Shown: piece by piece, positions 3,337 to 11,422 of the stretch | How positions within the stretch are numbered: the first letter of the stretch is position 1 | Layout: every line of letters starts with the position of its first letter | From: Actinocorallia herbida | Lineage (GTDB): Bacteria > Actinomycetota > Actinomycetes > Streptosporangiales > Streptosporangiaceae | Length of the DNA stretch: 64,000 nt | Assembly (NCBI RefSeq): GCF_003751225.1 | Contig: NZ_RJKE01000001.1 | Coordinates: forward strand, 3,038,001-3,102,000 | Reading direction: 5' to 3' | Made by a program: the position numbers and the translations under genes | Notes under the pieces: model-generated | What the model saw: the letters and a program-made list of their open reading frames with translations, nothing else | What the model was told of the DNA's origin: nothing | Databases searched by the model: none

Positions 3337-3405
3337 CACCGCCCTTCGCGCGCCCGGTCCGCCCTCACCACGGAAATGTCGGTGGGGGCGGTTAAGGTCC
3401 CGGGC

Positions 3406-6006
3406 ATGGCGAGCAGCGGCGACGAAGTGGCGTGGGAGCGGGTGCGGGCGGCGATCGCGCAGGGTGATGCGCGGAAGGTCGCCGCGGTCGTGGGCGGGTT
3501 CGGCGAGGAGACGCGCAAAGAGGTGGGGAAGCGGCTGCCCGAGGCGCTGCGCGGCATCGACGACCGCACCAGGTGGACGGATCAGCGGCTCGGGCCCCTG
3601 CGGGTCGCCGGGGCCGGGTGCCTCGGGGGCGCCGCCGCGGCGGCGGCCTGGGTGGCGCGGCGGGATCTTCGAGGATGGCGCGACAGGGACGGGCTCGGTG
3701 CGGCGATCGCGGCGGCCGTCGCCGGGCGGCCGAGCGAGTGGCGGCTCGATTTCGCGCGCCGCCTCACCGATCGGATAAGGCTCACGGACCTCTTGGACTG
3801 GCGCGCGGACCGGGTCCTGTGGGACGCGTCCGCGGCGCTGCTGCGCGCCGAAGGCGGCGCGCCGCCCGCGAGCGCGGCCTTCGCCGCGGGATGGCTGCTC
3901 TGGCGGCCCGCCGAACCCCTCGCCGAGGACCCGTTCTTTCCCGTGCTGCTGCCCGCCCTGTTCGACGCCGACGGGATCGGGCCGCTGCTCGGCGGCCGAG
4001 CGCCGTTCGGCACGGCCGGCCCGCCCGAGCCCGGTGCCGTGCCCGCCCTCGGCGCGCAGATCCTCGCGCACGCCGACCGCGCCTTCCTGCTCGACGGATG
4101 CGTGCGCAGGTTCCTGCGCGGCGGCGACGGGGCGCGTATCGCCTGGTACGTCGCGCTGCACCGCGCGCTCGCGCCGGCCCCGGAGGAGTCCGCGCCACGG
4201 CTGCGCGACTACGTCAGGCTGCTCCCGAATGCCGCGCCGCCCATCGCCGAGACCGCCTTCGAGCAGGTCAAGGCGGTCGACGCGCTGGCGCCGCTCGCCC
4301 CCGAGATGTTCACCGAGACCGCGAACGCGCTGCTGTTCCGGCCGGAGCGCAAGCTCCTGAAGGCCGCCTTGATCTGGCTCGACAAGACCGCGAAGGGCAG
4401 GGAGACCGCCGCGGTGGCGCAGGCCGCCGTCGCGTTCGCCATCGAGCACACCGACACCCGGGAACGGGCCGTGCGCCTCGCCGTCCGGCACGCGGCGGCC
4501 GTCGATCCGCTCACCGCCGAGACCGTCCGGGACGCGGCCGGGGCCTTGCCCGGCCCGCTGCGCGCGAGGATCGCCGATGCCTACGGGGGCGCCGTCGAGC
4601 CGGAGGCGCCGATCGAGGCGCCGGTGCTGTACGCGCCGGCGCCCAGCGAGCTGGATCCGCCGATCGCCTCGGCCGCCGAACTCCGCGAAGCCGTCCTGGC
4701 CCATCTGCACGCGTCCCGGTCGACGCGCTGGCCCGAGGTGGAGCGGCTGCTCGCCGGGCTCGTCGTGTACGGCCCCGACATCATCGCCGACCTGCGCGGC
4801 TACGGGGCGCGGTTCCCCTGGATCGTGCACCCCGACTTCAGCCACCTGGACGGCGCCTTCCTGGTGATGCACCGGCTCGCCCAGGGAAGCGCGCGGCGCG
4901 GCGTGGTCGACTACCTCCGCCACCGGCACGGCAGGACGAAGCTCCCGGATCGTCCCGCCCCCGCCCAGTTCGTCTATCGGCGCCTCATCGACGCCACCGC
5001 GCGCTTCGGCGCGCCGGCCCTGCTCGCCACGCCCACCGTCTCGACGGGCCACGTGGATCCCGAGGTCTTCGCCGAGCGCGTGCGCCTGCTGGAGGAGGCC
5101 GGCCGGGAGCCGGGTGCCTACGACCTTGATCAGGCCCTGCTCCGGCTGCCCGGCGACGCCTCCGCGAGGGTCCTTGACGGCCTGGTGTCGCCCGCCGCCA
5201 AGAGCGCGCGAGCCTGGATCGAGGGCGGCGGCCTGCCAGAGCCCGCGGTCTCCTATGAGGTCGTCGGATTCCGCAGGCGCAAGCTCGAATACTGGGAGGA
5301 ACAGCCGAAGAAGGAGAACGGGAAGCGTCTGCGCACCGTCCTCAGGGGCACCGCGACGGGTTCCGCCGGCCTCCTGACCGACCTGGACACCGGTGCCTTG
5401 GAGGACAGCAGGGCCGTCCGCGCCGTCGCCCGGTGGTGGGCCCCGATCCTGCCTTCGCACCGCGAGCTGACGGCCGCCCACCTGCTCCGCCAGGCCGAAC
5501 GCTGGCCGCTCGACCGCTACGAACAGGGCGAGGCGGTCCTCGACCTGGCCGACGCCACGGGCAAGACCGGCGCGGCGACGGCCGCCCTCCTTCTCTACGC
5601 CCTGTCCTCCCCGCACTCCGCCGACCGTGCCGGAGCACTCGACGCCGTCCTGTCCTTCGCCGCCCAGGACGCGCTCCCCGCCGCCGCCATGGGGGAACTC
5701 CTCCCCGTCTTCGTGAAGTCCGGCGACGTCTCCCTCTCCCGCGTGGTCCAAGGTCTCACCGAAGCCGCCCGCGCGGGCGCCCCCCTCTGGCCACTCTTCG
5801 CCAACGCCGTCCCCACCCTCCTCCCCACCGCCGACGAGTCCACCCCCGCCCCTCTGGCCGACCTCCTGGCCGCCGCCTCCACCACCGCCACCCTCCACCA
5901 CATCCGCACCCCCCTCCCCGCCCTCACCACCTGGACCCCCAAGTCCCCCACCTCCCGAGCCGCCAAGGAAGCCCTCCACCTGACCGCCCTCCTCACCACC
6001 CCCTGA
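3406..6006 (+). CDS. DUF6493-like large alpha-helical protein, copy 1
   Basis: An 866-aa cytoplasmic protein rich in Ala and Leu, with short repeated helices suggesting an alpha-solenoid; no signal peptide or membrane segment. It is a clear paralogue of the protein at 8813-11422: both start (M)AWERV-type, contain LRVAGAGCLGGAAAAAAW, LLFRPERKLL, PTxSTGHVDPEVF and LPSHRELTAAHLL, and end in nearly the same HxIRTPLPALTTWTP segment. The family resembles DUF6493, known from actinomycetes but without a defined activity. An ATG at 3376 is also possible; 3406 is preferred because it aligns with the paralogue start. The last ~200 nt of the coding strand are strikingly C-rich. The paralogues flank the rsr/Y-RNA locus, suggesting a functional link. 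Confidence 0.8.
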   Translation: MASSGDEVAWERVRAAIAQGDARKVAAVVGGFGEETRKEVGKRLPEALRGIDDRTRWTDQRLGPLRVAGAGCLGGAAAAAAWVARRDLRGWRDRDGLGAAIAAAVAGRPSEWRLDFARRLTDRIRLTDLLDWRADRVLWDASAALLRAEGGAPPASAAFAAGWLLWRPAEPLAEDPFFPVLLPALFDADGIGPLLGGRAPFGTAGPPEPGAVPALGAQILAHADRAFLLDGCVRRFLRGGDGARIAWYVALHRALAPAPEESAPRLRDYVRLLPNAAPPIAETAFEQVKAVDALAPLAPEMFTETANALLFRPERKLLKAALIWLDKTAKGRETAAVAQAAVAFAIEHTDTRERAVRLAVRHAAAVDPLTAETVRDAAGALPGPLRARIADAYGGAVEPEAPIEAPVLYAPAPSELDPPIASAAELREAVLAHLHASRSTRWPEVERLLAGLVVYGPDIIADLRGYGARFPWIVHPDFSHLDGAFLVMHRLAQGSARRGVVDYLRHRHGRTKLPDRPAPAQFVYRRLIDATARFGAPALLATPTVSTGHVDPEVFAERVRLLEEAGREPGAYDLDQALLRLPGDASARVLDGLVSPAAKSARAWIEGGGLPEPAVSYEVVGFRRRKLEYWEEQPKKENGKRLRTVLRGTATGSAGLLTDLDTGALEDSRAVRAVARWWAPILPSHRELTAAHLLRQAERWPLDRYEQGEAVLDLADATGKTGAATAALLLYALSSPHSADRAGALDAVLSFAAQDALPAAAMGELLPVFVKSGDVSLSRVVQGLTEAARAGAPLWPLFANAVPTLLPTADESTPAPLADLLAAASTTATLHHIRTPLPALTTWTPKSPTSRAAKEALHLTALLTTP

Positions 6007-6650: not shown

Positions 6651-6681
6651 TGAGTCGTGGGGACGGGTGCCCCACGACTCA
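6651..6681 (-). terminator. Terminator-like hairpin at the 3' end of rsr
   Basis: A perfect 12-bp inverted repeat (TGAGTCGTGGGG / CCCCACGACTCA) with a 7-nt loop overlaps the TGA stop codon of the rsr gene. There is no T-run. It should form a very stable 3' end on the rsr transcript. Confidence 0.6.
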
Positions 6682-8289
6682 AGGGGCGTGGGTGGTGGGG
6701 AGCCAGGGCCAGGTGGCGGAGCGGGCGGATTCGAGGAGGGGGATCATGCGGAAGGCGGCGTCGGTGAGGCCGCCGAGCTCGTGGCGGGTGCCGGAGCCGG
6801 TGGGGATCGCGCCGTGGCGGTGGCCCGCCAGGTTGAAGGCGTACATCGGGATGCGGGCCGGGGCGGCCTCGGTGACGCTGCGGCGACCGTGGAACGTCTG
6901 CATGTCCGACAAGATGACGACCCTGTCGTGGCCGCGGTAAGTCCCGCTGACGGCTTCGGCGATCCGGGTGCCGTGGCCCACCTCGCCGATCCGGCGCACG
7001 AACGCGGCGACCTCGGCGAGGACGGCGCCGCCGGGAGCGACCCGGTGCGGGAACGTCCCGTCGGCGAACCCGTGCAGATCGACGTCGGCGCCGCGCAGGG
7101 TGAGCACGACCCCGAACAATGCGGCGGCCTGGGCGTGGGTCATCTGGGACCGCCCGGACAGCCGGGTTTCCATCGACGAGGACGTGTCGACCAGGACGAG
7201 CGTCCGGCCCGGAAAGCGGGGAACGTTCTGCGTGGCGAGTCCCAGCGCCGTCTCCAGCGCGTGCCCCCAGCCTGCGCTCGGTGCCGCCGCGTACGCCTGA
7301 AACCAGCGGAACGGGAACATCCGCGACCTGGCGATGGTCACCGGATCGGTGAAGCGCCGCGCGACGGCCTCGGCCGCCTCGTCGCCGACACCCGCCTCGT
7401 CGAAGTTGCGGAGGTTGCGGGCCAGCGCCATGACGCCCATGCCCGGGATGACCGCCTCCCACGCCCGCGCGTCCATCGGCCCCTGGAGCCAGCCGGCGAG
7501 GGCTTCCCAGGTGATGCCGGCGGCCTGCAGGCGCGCCGGGCCGTCCGCGGAGAGGAGGACGGCACGCCGCTCGGCGACCGGGAGCGCGAGCAGCTCGGCC
7601 CGGGCGCGGAGCAGCGGGAGATCCTCCGGCACCGGCCCGCCCCGCTCGTGGCGCCGGTCGAGAGCGTGCCGGTACAGGCTGGACCGCCAGGTGCCGCGCA
7701 CCTCCGGGTGGTGGTGGGCGGGCGTGACGAGGTCGACCACATCGCCCATCCGGACGGCCCGGTCGACCGGGTCGTACTTTGCCAGGGACCGCTCCGTGTA
7801 GAGGCGCACGACGGCGTCGGCGACGCCCCGCTTCAACGCGATGGGGATCGGCTTGCCGTAGGTCGTCAGCCAGTAGGCGAGGATTTCGGCCGGCTCGTCG
7901 GCGCGCTGCAGCACCGCGTCGACGACGGCCCGGGTGCGCATCCCGGACGGCCTGGCGCGCACCAGCTCGGCGGCCGCGACGAGTGGCGCGGACCGTACGT
8001 TGCCCTCGCCGCGCAGCCAGGTCAGGAACGCGACGGTCCACTCCGGGTCCTGCGCGGCGGCCTCTACGACGAGCCGCCGGAACCGTTCCGCGCGCTCACG
8101 GGCCTTCTCGTAGAAGGCGTCCTCGGCGACCATCGCGGAGACGCCGAGCAGGAACAGCTCGGACTTGACGTCGCGGCCGTGCCCCGGCGCGCCCTCATGG
8201 GTGGTGCCGGTGACGCCGGTCGTGGTGATCGGGCTCGTCGGGCCGCGGCGCCCGACGCGCGCGGCGGACTTGGCGTTGAACCTGGTCAT
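6679..8289 (-). CDS. rsr: Ro60 orthologue (Rsr): TROVE and vWA domain RNA-binding protein
   Basis: A 536-aa protein. Residues ~20-350 form an all-helical TROVE (HEAT-like) ring domain; residues ~360-536 form a von Willebrand factor A domain with an intact metal site DTSSSM at 368-373 and a later ILSDMQTFHG. Ro60 rings bind Y RNAs on the outside and misfolded RNA ends in the cavity, and in bacteria tether exoribonucleases such as PNPase for RNA decay and stress recovery. The ATG at 8289 is chosen over upstream in-frame codons because MTRFNAKSAARVG looks like a normal start for the family and because the upstream frame would run into the Y RNA gene. The two RNAs immediately upstream on the same strand identify this as a complete Ro60/Y-RNA locus. 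Confidence 0.9.
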   Translation of the reverse strand: MTRFNAKSAARVGRRGPTSPITTTGVTGTTHEGAPGHGRDVKSELFLLGVSAMVAEDAFYEKARERAERFRRLVVEAAAQDPEWTVAFLTWLRGEGNVRSAPLVAAAELVRARPSGMRTRAVVDAVLQRADEPAEILAYWLTTYGKPIPIALKRGVADAVVRLYTERSLAKYDPVDRAVRMGDVVDLVTPAHHHPEVRGTWRSSLYRHALDRRHERGGPVPEDLPLLRARAELLALPVAERRAVLLSADGPARLQAAGITWEALAGWLQGPMDARAWEAVIPGMGVMALARNLRNFDEAGVGDEAAEAVARRFTDPVTIARSRMFPFRWFQAYAAAPSAGWGHALETALGLATQNVPRFPGRTLVLVDTSSSMETRLSGRSQMTHAQAAALFGVVLTLRGADVDLHGFADGTFPHRVAPGGAVLAEVAAFVRRIGEVGHGTRIAEAVSGTYRGHDRVVILSDMQTFHGRRSVTEAAPARIPMYAFNLAGHRHGAIPTGSGTRHELGGLTDAAFRMIPLLESARSATWPWLPTTHAP

Positions 8290-8324
8290 CTCGATTCCCG
8301 GGGAGAACAGAGGAGACGGCCCGG

Positions 8325-8489
8325 GCCGCCGCCGGCGGGTGCCCGAGAACGGAGTCGGAGGTGGAGACATGGTGCTCTGTCCAGCTGAGCCACCGGCTCC
8401 CAGGGAGCCGGACGGGACTCGAACCCGCGACCACCCGATCTCAAGTCGAAGTATCCATCGCCTGCACTTCGGGCACCGCCGACGGCGGC
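8325..8489 (-). ncRNA. yrlA: YrlA-type Y RNA with circularly permuted tRNA-like domain
   Basis: Read on the minus strand, the ends pair in a long stem: 12 bp (8489-8478 with 8336-8325, one G-T), a single bulged C at 8337, then 9 bp GGTGCCCGA/TCGGGCACC (8477-8469 with 8346-8338). Inside is a tRNA in permuted order. First comes the T-arm GCGGG-TTCGAGT-CCCGT (8428-8412), then acceptor strand CCGGCTCC, a 3-nt loop CTG (8403-8401), acceptor strand GGAGCCGG, T8-G9, and the D-arm GCTC-AGCTGGACA-GAGC (8390-8374). The acceptor stem has 8 perfect pairs. Where an anticodon arm would be, TGG/CCA and GAGA/TCTC pairs lead through internal loops into the outer stem. There is no free CCA end and no anticodon loop. 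This is the architecture described for YrlA RNAs, which dock on Ro60. It ends 35 nt before the rsr start codon. Exact ends and promoter are unknown. Confidence 0.88.
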
Positions 8490-8575
8490 ACGGACCTCTC
8501 CGAGAACAGAAGTGGCGACGGCCTGAAATGACCCGTCGAATGTGACAGGTGAAGTATCCGTCGCCGGCACTTCGG
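8448..8575 (-). repeat. Direct repeat pair shared by the two Y-like RNAs
   Basis: Two 25-nt copies, 8575-8551 and 8472-8448 on the minus strand, differ at two positions only. The consensus is CCGAAGTGC-M-GGCGA-Y-GGATACTTC. Each begins in the closing stem of one of the two RNAs. The duplication suggests a shared Ro60-binding element or origin by tandem duplication. Confidence 0.8.
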
Positions 8576-8581
8576 AGAGGT
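8494..8581 (-). ncRNA. Second Y-like structured RNA upstream of YrlA
   Basis: On the minus strand, ACCTCTCCGA (8581-8572) pairs perfectly with TCGGAGAGGT (8503-8494), and GGCGACGG (8565-8558) pairs with CCGTCGCC (8521-8514). An asymmetric internal loop separates the two helices and a ~36-nt loop caps the inner one. The 5' strand carries the same CCGAAGTGC element and the 3' strand the same GTTCTCGG element as the YrlA stem, in the same places. Bacterial rsr loci often carry two Y RNAs in tandem, so this is read as a YrlB-like partner without a tRNA-like module. It could instead be a 5' regulatory structure of the YrlA transcript. Confidence 0.6.
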
Positions 8582-8812
8582 GCTGAAGGGAACGCTAACG
8601 ATCAGCGATCCGGAGCGCATCCGATTACTTCCCGGACGGTCCGGGTTCACGGTGGCCACCGCGAGTACGCCGAAGAGCGGGGACCACCGGCCGAAGAGAG
8701 CGCGGACCACGGCGTCGACGCCGGGTCGCGCGAACTCTTCGCAGGCCACCACGAAGGGACCGGAGATCTTCCCGGCGCTGTTCTGTCGGTGCCGGGAGAT
8801 AGCTTGCGGGCC
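8582..8812. other. Divergent intergenic region between the Y RNAs and DUF6493-like copy 2
   Basis: About 230 bp that must hold the promoters for the minus-strand Y RNA/rsr transcripts and for the plus-strand DUF6493-like gene. No promoter elements could be assigned with confidence. Confidence 0.4.
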
Positions 8813-11422
8813 GTGACGGATCAGCGAGTGCCGATGGCCTGGGAGCGGGTCGAGAAGGCGATCAGGGCGGCGGACCCGGCGAGCACGGCCGCGGTCGTCG
8901 CCGGTCTCGACGCGGCGGATCGCAAGGAGGTCGGGGCAAGGCTGCCGGGGCTCTTGCGGGAACTCGCCAAGGACCCGTGGGGCTGCGACCGCAGTTCCGG
9001 CGCGTTGCGCGCGGCGGGCGCGGGATGTCTGGCCGGCGCCGCCGCCGCGGCCGCGTGGCTCCATCGCAGGGAGCTCCGGACGCCCATGTGGCGTGAGCCG
9101 GGCGAGGAGGAGGACACCTCACGGGCCGTCCTGTCTGTGCTGGAAGGCCGGCCGAGGGTCTGGCGGCTCGACCTCGCCGCGCGGCTCGCCGCCCGCCTGC
9201 GGCCGTCCGAACTCCAGAACTGGAACGCCGACCGGATCCCGTGGGAGGTCTCCGCCGGACTGCTCCGGGCCGAGGGCGAGCCGCCGCCCGCGACGGAGGC
9301 CTTCGCCGCCGGATGGCTGCGCTTCCGGGAAGCGGAACCGGCGGCGGCCGATCCGTTCTTCCCCGTGCTGGTGCCCGTCCTGTTCGCCGCGGACGCACTC
9401 GGTCCGATCCTCCTGGAAGACGCGCCCTTCGCGGACCCGGATCCCTTCGAGGAGAGCGCTTCACGCGGCCTCGCCGAGGAGATCGTCGCACTCGTCGCCC
9501 GCGAGGACCTGCTCGAAGGGTGCGTCCGCAGGCTCCTGCGCGGCGGCGAGGGACGGGCCGTCGCCTGGTACGTCGGTCTGCACGAGCGCCTCGCGCCCAT
9601 CGCGGCGGAATCGGCCGGCCGCCTGCGCGACTACCTCCGGCTGCTGCCCGCCGCCGCCCTTCCCGTCGCCGAGGCCGCGTTCGCCCAGATCCGGGTGGTC
9701 GACGCCGCCGCGCCGCTCGCGGAGGAGGCGTTCGCGGAGGCCGCGGGCGCGCTGCTGTTCCGGCCGGAGCGCAAACTCCTCAGATCCACTCTCGGCTGGC
9801 TCGACAGGACCGCCGCCGGACGCGAGCGCGCGACCGTCGCGGCGGCCGTGGCCGCGTTCGCGATCGAGCACCCCGACACCCGCGAGCGGGCGGTGCGCCT
9901 CGTGCTGAAGCACAAGGACGCGGTCGATCCGCGTACCGCCCAGGAGGTCCGGGAGGCGTCCGCCGAACTGCCGGCCCCCCTGCGGGAGAAGGTGGCCGCG
10001 GCGTACGGAGGGGCCGCCGAGCCCGTCCGGGCCGAGGCGCCGGTCCTGTACCCGGTGGCGCCGCGCGAACTCGACCCGCCGATCGCCTCGCCCGCCGGCC
10101 TCCTCCCCGAGCTGATCGCCTACCTGCACGAGTCCGACGACGTGGGTCCCTGGCCGGAGGCCGAGCGCCTGATCGCGGGGCTGGTGGCGCACGGCGGAGG
10201 CGTCTTCCGTGAGGTGCGCGCCTATGCGGAGAAGGAGAGGCCCTGGCTGCTGCGCAAGGACGCCCACGGCCACATGGAGGGCGTCGAACTCGTCTTCAAC
10301 GCGCTCGTGCGGGACCGGCCGCGCGGCACCCTGGACGACGAGCTCCGCACCCGTCTCGCGAAGGCGGGACGGGCGTCCTCCAGTCCCGCCCCCGCGAGGT
10401 TCCTGCGCCGGCGGTTCCTGGAGGCCGCCCTGCACCTGGGCGACCCGGTCCTGCTGGCCACCCCGACGAGCTCGACGGGCCACGTCGATCCCGAGGTGTT
10501 CGCCGCCAGGCTGCGCGCCCTGGAGGAGGCGGGCGCGGAGCCCGGTCCGGTCGACCTGGCCCAGGGGCTGCTGCGCCTGCCACGCGGGACGGGCCCGCTG
10601 CCCGCGCTCGCCGGGCTGGGCTCGCCCGCGGCGAAGACCGCTCGCGCCTGGCTCGCCGCCGACGGCCTGCCCGACCCGGACACCGCGTTCGCCTCCGCCG
10701 TCGCCGAACGCCTGGACGGGTTCGTGACGCGGTCCTCACCGCGCTTCCCGGCGGCCCTGCGATACCCCGAGCCGCCGGAACCGCTCGCTGAGGCGGCCCC
10801 GCTGCTGGAGGCCAAGCCCTGGTTCTTCGAGTTCCAGGCGACGGCCACCTGGTGGCCGTCGCTGCTGCCCTCGCACCGGGAGCTGACCGCCGCGCACCTC
10901 CTCGGCCAGCTCAGGAACTGGCCCGAGCGGCGGCTCGGCCAGGGCACCGCCGCCCTCGGCCTCGCCGACGCGACGGGCCCCACGGGCCGGGCGACCGCCG
11001 CCGTCCTGCTGTTCGCCCTGTCGTCCCAGCACGCCCCGGAACGCGCCGGGGCCCTCGACGCCGTCATCTCGTTCGCCGCCCAGGACGCCCTGCCCGCCGC
11101 CGACCTGGGCGCCCAGCTCGGTATGTTCGCCGAGTCCGGTGACATCGTCCTGTCCCGTGTGGTCCGGGGCCTCTCCGAAGCCGCCCGCGCGGGCGTCCCC
11201 CTGTGGCCTCTCTTCGCCGAGGCGGTCCCGGCCCTTCTCCCCGCCGCCGGCACATCCCCGGCCCGCGGCCTGAACGACCTCCTGTCCCTCGCCACCCGCA
11301 CCGCGGAGACCCACGGCATCCGCACTCCCCTCCCCGCCCTCACCACCTGGACCCCCACCTCCCGAACCTCCCGCACCGCCAAGGAGGCCGCCACCCTCCA
11401 CGCCACCCTCACCGCCCCCTGA
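8813..11422 (+). CDS. DUF6493-like large alpha-helical protein, copy 2
   Basis: An 869-aa protein, paralogous over its full length to the one at 3406-6006. It starts at a GTG (VTDQRVPMAWERVEKAI); the longer open frame upstream would overlap the Y RNA region. Shared blocks are LRAAGAGCLAGAAAAAAW, LLFRPERKLL, IEHPDTRERAVRL, SSTGHVDPEVF, LPSHRELTAAHLL, FAAQDALPAADLG and the C-terminal IRTPLPALTTWTP. It is soluble and helical, likely a solenoid scaffold. The gene is divergent from the Y RNA/rsr transcript, so the two copies bracket the Ro60 locus. Function is unknown; an adaptor role for the Ro60 particle is inferred from position only. Confidence 0.8.
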   Translation: MTDQRVPMAWERVEKAIRAADPASTAAVVAGLDAADRKEVGARLPGLLRELAKDPWGCDRSSGALRAAGAGCLAGAAAAAAWLHRRELRTPMWREPGEEEDTSRAVLSVLEGRPRVWRLDLAARLAARLRPSELQNWNADRIPWEVSAGLLRAEGEPPPATEAFAAGWLRFREAEPAAADPFFPVLVPVLFAADALGPILLEDAPFADPDPFEESASRGLAEEIVALVAREDLLEGCVRRLLRGGEGRAVAWYVGLHERLAPIAAESAGRLRDYLRLLPAAALPVAEAAFAQIRVVDAAAPLAEEAFAEAAGALLFRPERKLLRSTLGWLDRTAAGRERATVAAAVAAFAIEHPDTRERAVRLVLKHKDAVDPRTAQEVREASAELPAPLREKVAAAYGGAAEPVRAEAPVLYPVAPRELDPPIASPAGLLPELIAYLHESDDVGPWPEAERLIAGLVAHGGGVFREVRAYAEKERPWLLRKDAHGHMEGVELVFNALVRDRPRGTLDDELRTRLAKAGRASSSPAPARFLRRRFLEAALHLGDPVLLATPTSSTGHVDPEVFAARLRALEEAGAEPGPVDLAQGLLRLPRGTGPLPALAGLGSPAAKTARAWLAADGLPDPDTAFASAVAERLDGFVTRSSPRFPAALRYPEPPEPLAEAAPLLEAKPWFFEFQATATWWPSLLPSHRELTAAHLLGQLRNWPERRLGQGTAALGLADATGPTGRATAAVLLFALSSQHAPERAGALDAVISFAAQDALPAADLGAQLGMFAESGDIVLSRVVRGLSEAARAGVPLWPLFAEAVPALLPAAGTSPARGLNDLLSLATRTAETHGIRTPLPALTTWTPTSRTSRTAKEAATLHATLTAP

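Follow-up and report, generated by a model that had tools for sequence, protein, structure and literature searches.

On the minus strand of a 64,000-nucleotide stretch of Actinocorallia herbida DNA (contig NZ_RJKE01000001.1, positions 3,038,001 to 3,102,000; hereafter the window), rsr, the gene for a Ro60/TROVE protein, is preceded by a small RNA element, Y RNA 2, which combines a long stem closing the RNA ends with transfer RNA (tRNA) elements in permuted order. The question addressed here is what bacterial Y RNAs use their tRNA-like end for. We consider it probable that Y RNA 2 is a YrlA-type bacterial Y RNA ending in a complete circularly permuted tRNA, anticodon arm included, and that it is a tRNA-shaped adaptor held by Rsr. 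YrlA-type Y RNAs that mimic the D, T and acceptor arms are known already; what appears to be new, as read from sequence, is the complete anticodon arm with a split stem.

Anatomy of Y RNA 2

The features of Y RNA 2 and the gene that follows it are listed below, with coordinates in the window.

8325..8489, minus: Y RNA 2, read as a Ro stem plus a complete permuted tRNA (element check, folding, Rfam match)
8469..8489, minus: 5′ strand of the outer (Ro) stem, 21 nucleotides (nt), partner 8346-8325, one bulged C
8449..8462, minus: conserved 5′ motif GGCGAUGGAUACUU, common to Y RNA 2 and the neighboring Y RNA 1
8446..8448, minus: anticodon stem positions 29-31 (CGA), local strand, partners 41-39
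8439..8445, minus: anticodon loop, positions 32-38, CUUGAGA, triplet UGA (CU-UGA-GA)
8434..8438, minus: 3′ strand of the anticodon stem, positions 39-43 (UCGGG), covariation in relatives
8429..8433, minus: variable loop UGGUC, 4 or 5 nt in relatives
8412..8428, minus: T arm GCGGG-UUCGAGU-CCCGU
8393..8411, minus: acceptor, with 3′ strand, 3-nt loop CUG and 5′ strand; 8 pairs, no CCA end
8392-8391, minus: U8-G9
8374..8390, minus: D arm GCUC-AGCUGGACA-GAGC, GG in the loop, 3′ of U8-G9
8371..8373, minus: A at position 26, then CC at anticodon stem positions 27-28, partners 43 and 42
8325..8346, minus: 3′ strand of the outer (Ro) stem, with one bulged C
6679..8289, minus: rsr, Ro60/TROVE protein of 536 aa (Pfam PF05731, 42.5 bits, 6.3e-11)

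From 5′ to 3′, the Ro 5′ strand leads into positions 29-31, the anticodon loop, positions 39-43, the variable loop and the T arm; the acceptor 3′ strand, the short loop, the acceptor 5′ strand, the D arm, positions 26-28 and the Ro 3′ strand follow. The two acceptor strands, 8411-8404 and 8400-8393, have the same arrangement among relatives. With a short loop in place of the CCA end, Y RNA 2 can be neither charged nor used for decoding. The folding z-score of the RNA is -3.9, and its ends are closed by a 21-pair stem with one bulged C (8489-8469 / 8346-8325).

The first-pass annotation, made from the sequence of the window, had proposed a YrlA-type Y RNA with a permuted tRNA next to rsr and no CCA end. 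That proposal holds: each element that it named on the minus strand (the T arm, 8 acceptor pairs, the 3-nt loop, U8-G9 and the D arm with GG) was located, the outer stem is as described, and the RNA ends 35 nt upstream of the ATG at 8289, on the same strand, the gene being TROVE by Pfam. It had also set covariation among related genomes beforehand as the test that could refute it, and this covariation is strong.

Covariation and spread of the split anticodon stem

A survey of the host's family covered 299 genomes, 105 of them with a relative of the rsr protein; TROVE relatives did not turn up when named genomes were scanned with a protein pattern, but were retrieved by whole-genome searches. 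Upstream regions fetched from this family gave 197 Y RNAs at 84 rsr loci, framed by the conserved 5′ motif. Among 181 relatives the outer stem shows 6.5 of 9 complementary pairs, as opposed to 4.4 with swapped partners. In relatives the spacing from UACUUC to the T arm is exactly that of a tRNA: stem, 7-nt loop, 5-nt strand and a variable loop of 4 or 5 nt. The anticodon stem is split, with 27:43 and 28:42 drawing on bases after the D arm and 29:41, 30:40 and 31:39 on bases after UACUU. All five pairs of Y RNA 2 in the window are Watson-Crick (C27-G43, C28-G42, C29-G41, G30-C40 and A31-U39). Since 27-28 follow the D arm and 29-31 are local, the Ro stem enters between 28 and 29.

As a test set we took 95 family units with a D arm, not selected for the split stem. 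All five split pairs are present in 67 of the 95, compared with 2.1% of shuffles, and every split pair shows two-sided changes among family units. The pair types in the 67 units are:

27:43: CG 59, UA 4, UG 2, GC 2
28:42: UA 33, CG 25, GC 4, AU 4, UG 1
29:41: CG 54, GC 7, UG 3, UA 3
30:40: CG 39, GC 24, UA 3, AU 1 (all four Watson-Crick types)
31:39: AU 39, UA 17, CG 8, GC 3 (all four Watson-Crick types)

The register is equally specific: with one spacer base after the D arm, 27:43 is paired in 71 and 28:42 in 70 of 76 units, the corresponding counts being 3 and 34 with no spacer and 60 and 47 with two. A five-pair stem made entirely of local bases, which can form in 70 of 118 units (59%) versus 2.9% of shuffles keeping UACUUC, was replaced by the split stem because changes on both sides of the pair are seen for the post-D-arm bases at 27 and 28, whereas pairs built with the local bases are mostly one-sided or wobble.

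An independent set of relatives was gathered from public genomes (105 stretches) and viral contigs (31 stretches) with a DNA pattern that specifies only the 5′ half, namely UACUUC, the loop frame and the T arm, and leaves position 42 and the pair 30/40 free; the 120 unique stretches with a permuted acceptor and D arm downstream were scored. Pair 28:42 covaries in every one of the 120, G42 occurring with C28 (70/70) and A42 with U28 (50/50), and 30:40 is likewise complementary in 120/120; position 27 is a C facing G43, which the pattern fixes, in 119/120. Both types of 28:42 occur within the Alphaproteobacteria (Bradyrhizobium, L252, and an Alphaproteobacteria metagenome-assembled genome (MAG), L279) and again within the host's Actinomycetota family, so they do not reflect one inherited change.

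The permuted tRNA upstream of rsr recurs across the host's family and beyond. TROVE is nearby at 92/105 genome loci and 25/31 viral loci of the independent set, and at the 105 TROVE-linked loci with a scored RNA it lies on the same strand, at a median of 329 nt from RNA to TROVE match. By the labels of the sequence records, which can be wrong for MAGs, the matches come from Streptomyces and other Actinomycetota, Bradyrhizobium and other Alphaproteobacteria, Akkermansiaceae, the planctomycetes Zavarzinella and Singulisphaera, Niastella and Chitinophagaceae (Bacteroidota), Acidobacteriota MAGs and a Ruminococcus MAG; the same build is found on a Deinococcus plasmid, a Rhodococcus plasmid and Gordonia and Xanthomonas phages. 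The named isolates among these belong to Actinomycetota, Pseudomonadota, Planctomycetota, Bacteroidota and Deinococcota.

The loop closed by the split stem is conserved in family units at U33 (86/93), R37 (84/93) and A38 (82/93), while positions 34-36 are near maximal entropy (1.8-2.0 bits), with 32 triplets, and the triplet differs between congeners. Positions 36 and 37 are not independent: G36 goes with G37 in 17/18 and 15/17 cases, with Fisher p values of 1e-8 and 2e-14 that are optimistic given that the sequences are related, and U36 goes mostly with A37. In tRNAs, G36-G37 is the context for TrmD (m1G37), and U36-A37 is the context for t6A. This pattern suggests selection for a tRNA-like loop, not for a particular codon. 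We considered whether each array member imitates one particular tRNA and rejected the idea, anticodon and D-arm identity agreeing in 11/67 units where 6.2 would be expected by chance (p 0.03); with a link this weak, generic tRNA mimicry looks likely. At the level of sequence comparison, we have shown the architecture, the linkage to rsr, the constraint on the loop and the arrays described next.

Y RNA 1 and tandem arrays

Y RNA 2 is one of a pair, a context absent from the first-pass annotation, which recorded neither Y RNA 1 (8580-8495) nor the tandem arrays of related loci. The additional elements in the window are:

8495..8580, minus: Y RNA 1, no tRNA part; outer stem CCUCUCCGA/UCGGAGAGG, inner stem GGCGACGG/CCGUCGCC
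8591..8627, minus: promoter-like block TAATCGGATGCG-N-TTAGCGTT, ~10 nt 5′ of Y RNA 1

Y RNA 1 has a folding z-score of -4.8, none of 200 shuffles being equally stable. It shares with Y RNA 2 a 25-nt block, CCGAAGUGCNGGCGAYGGAUACUUC, that is 92% identical, as well as a similar 3′ motif (GUUCUCGG), and its frame is also found in relatives. Y RNA 1 resembles YrlB, and other Y RNAs that have no tRNA part, in layout: it has such stem motifs and lies beside a tRNA-bearing Y RNA, as in the rsr-yrlBA-rtcBA operon of Salmonella; that operon includes rtcBA, whereas the window gave no RtcB match. At some nine loci of the family the first Y RNA is preceded by a similar promoter-like block (AATAATCGGATGCG...CTACCGTTG), and we infer that the block at 8591..8627 may act as a promoter; a scan for sigma-70 consensus promoters and terminators gave no match. 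Between Y RNA 2 and the rsr start, a lone copy of the 3′ motif (GGCCGUCUCCUCUGUUCUCCCCGG, 8298-8321, minus) stands without an evident 5′ partner and may be either a leader element or the decayed remnant of a third Y RNA.

Across the host's family, at least two Y RNAs are present at 67 of the 84 rsr loci, with a maximum of four. The tRNA parts vary within arrays: D arms are tRNA-Glu-, tRNA-Gln- or tRNA-Asn-like, and some units carry an anticodon arm, others T and D arms only. At four loci (L037, L070, L074 and L075) some further array units carry only a T-arm-like hairpin, or other hairpins. The arrays hold more effector types than tRNA mimics.

The host genome (9.8 Mb in one contig) has 60 ordinary tRNA genes, tRNA-Ser(tga) among them. 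It also has a second rsr at ~66 kb (C1:60000-74000), with two permuted-tRNA Y RNAs and one without a tRNA part, and, at C1:5090256-5090502, two permuted tRNAs whose acceptor pairs are formed and which lack the UACUUC and CUCGG motifs; a TROVE search of the host genome gave no match near the latter. Two further Rfam YrlA matches, at C1:8832499 and C1:9106401, overlap ordinary tRNA genes and were discarded.

On either side of rsr in the window, the plus strand encodes large proteins that look alike by eye, one at 3376-6006 (876 aa) and one at 8549-11422 (957 aa, with a weak DUF7824 match). With its start as listed, the 957-aa protein overlaps Y RNA 1 on the opposite strand and therefore probably begins further in.

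Class assignment and possible function

With its TROVE neighbor, its permuted T arm, acceptor and D arm without CCA and its long end-to-end stem, Y RNA 2 belongs with the YrlA-type RNAs. It shares with YrlA (Rfam RF02553; Salmonella structure PDB 6CU1) the linkage to rsr, the end-closing stem, the permuted order of T arm, acceptor and D arm and the short acceptor loop without CCA. A check against the YrlA covariance model, suggested by the first-pass annotation, succeeded in part: the core matches (41.6 bits, E 6e-8 over 451 bases searched, model positions 24-84 only), but the gathering score of 69 bits is not reached, and none of 18 distant loci reaches it. In RF02553 and in a review (PMC8394870), YrlA has D, T and acceptor arms only, to which Y RNA 2 adds an anticodon arm with a split stem. 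Here the first-pass annotation, which had assigned the published design and let the anticodon stem simply run into the Ro stem, needs correction: published YrlA lacks an anticodon arm and its anticodon stem merges into the Ro stem, whereas covariation supports a 7-nt loop in Y RNA 2 and a stem whose 5′ strand comes partly from one end of the tRNA part and partly from the other. We found no mention of an anticodon arm in bacterial Y RNAs in PMC8394870, Rfam or literature searches, although primary papers may note one.

Part of the tRNA shape is put to another purpose in transfer-messenger RNA too; that RNA is charged and lacks an anticodon arm, whereas Y RNA 2 is unchargeable and has one. Permuted tRNA genes of algae and archaea likewise place the 3′ part of the tRNA before the 5′ part. 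They mature into working tRNAs, whereas in Y RNA 2 a short loop connects the two acceptor strands and a Ro-type stem closes the ends.

Several observations weigh against a complete tRNA end. Among the 95 D-arm units, 28 do not complete the set of five split pairs, and some of these build the stem wholly from post-D-arm bases, like classical YrlA; further T-arm units have no room for any anticodon arm. Y RNA 2 itself has A36-G37, breaking the usual tRNA rule for these positions. Nearest-neighbor folding gives -94 kcal/mol, as against -82 kcal/mol with the tRNA fold enforced, energies that ignore tertiary contacts.

Some of these points would be expected if Y RNA 2 were an ordinary YrlA, with the Ro stem in place of the anticodon arm, an incidental hairpin and importance confined to the T, acceptor and D arms: in the RF02553 alignment the core has a 3-pair helix behind the D arm and lacks a hairpin, some relatives form the stem from post-D-arm bases only, and minimum-energy folding does not favor the full tRNA. 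An incidental hairpin, though, would show neither covariation nor loop constraint, and the five split pairs covary (28:42 in all 120 independent relatives), U33, R37 and A38 are kept, and 36-37 mostly obeys the tRNA rule; this reading is thereby already refuted for the family as a whole, and for Y RNA 2 we judge it very improbable. Still harder to credit is a permuted gene for a working tRNA, or a tRNA pseudogene, even though ARAGORN calls tRNA-Ser(tga) at 8476-8403, a miscall of the kind that the first-pass annotation had foreseen, and 47 of the 120 relatives are likewise called tRNAs. The 3-nt acceptor loop is too short to contain a discriminator base, CCA or processing sites, the tRNA model RF00005 scores 20.3 bits against a threshold of 29, too low for a tRNA gene, the host already has its ordinary tRNA-Ser(tga) gene, and linkage to TROVE is near-universal. 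A cis-acting leader through which Rsr controls its own synthesis would fit an RNA that ends so close to the start codon on the same strand, below a promoter-like block upstream of Y RNA 1, an arrangement that makes a joint transcript likely; yet the elaborate tRNA part is unnecessary for autocontrol, and loci with as many as four different Y RNAs in an array point to action in trans. We think the leader improbable as an explanation, and a cis effect could be additional.

Of greater weight is the idea that Y RNA 2 lures anticodon-targeting nucleases as a bait or decoy, or else serves tRNA repair as a handle, the tandem copies together displaying a range of anticodon loops. According to a proposal in PMC7790460, YrlA inhibits an anticodon nuclease competitively, and phage tRNAs are thought to counter such nucleases (PMC10264068). 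The complete anticodon loop with its freely varying triplet would suit this role; the RtcB RNA ligase lies beside rsr in 7/105 genome loci, all labelled outside Actinomycetota, and 1/31 viral loci (cases with RtcB close to rsr and an anticodon-bearing Y RNA are L210, L245, L252, L253, L279, L296 and L304); and some loci sit inside large tRNA arrays, several phages carrying a Y RNA beside tRNA genes. Conversely, neither an RtcB match nor a true tRNA gene was found in the window, YrlA was not cut in PMC7790460, most motif-bearing loci lack a tRNA array, and the variation of the anticodon may be mere drift. The link to repair and nucleases thus has partial support, and as an account of Y RNA 2 we regard it as rather unlikely. 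The tRNA arrays in or near which a Y RNA and rsr occur (L220, L245, L279, L221, L213 and viral L330 and L331) hold up to 36 tRNAs in 8 kb.

We posit instead that Y RNA 2 serves as an Rsr-held, tRNA-shaped adaptor. Rsr from the adjoining gene would hold the Ro stem, and the tRNA-shaped end would recruit or distract proteins that recognize a whole tRNA, including the shape of its anticodon loop, independently of any particular anticodon. PNPase and modification enzymes are candidate partners, and anticodon nucleases or repair enzymes may be too; through tandem copies that differ in their tRNA part, a single Rsr would have several adaptors at its disposal. We count the known biochemistry toward the protein-recruiting part of this explanation: YrlA is modified by DusA and TruB, and a Y RNA tethers PNPase to Rsr (PMC8394870).

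Should mimicry of the whole tRNA, with an anticodon loop that follows tRNA rules, hold for a large share of these RNAs, from Streptomyces to Bradyrhizobium, Planctomycetes and phages, then their partner probably sees the anticodon arm, and the field of candidates shrinks to enzymes that modify the anticodon loop, anticodon nucleases, repair enzymes and similar proteins. A wider proposal, which we advance tentatively and with some doubt, is that Y RNAs of bacteria of many phyla and of phages are Rsr-tethered baits with exchangeable anticodons, read as real tRNA loops by anticodon-loop enzymes, the arrays being a repertoire of decoys or adaptors; the enzymes in question may be those of TrmD- and t6A-type modification, anticodon nucleases and RtcB repair.

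There are practical consequences as well. The current Rfam model misses anticodon-bearing Y RNAs, and tRNA finders call many of them tRNAs; two annotated phage tRNA genes are affected. The tRNA-Arg(tct) annotated in Gordonia phage VanLee (L165 879-950) and the tRNA-Thr annotated in Xanthomonas phage 10KY502B (L166 2483-2550) each coincide with a split-stem Y RNA beside a TROVE gene, and both annotations are probably in error.
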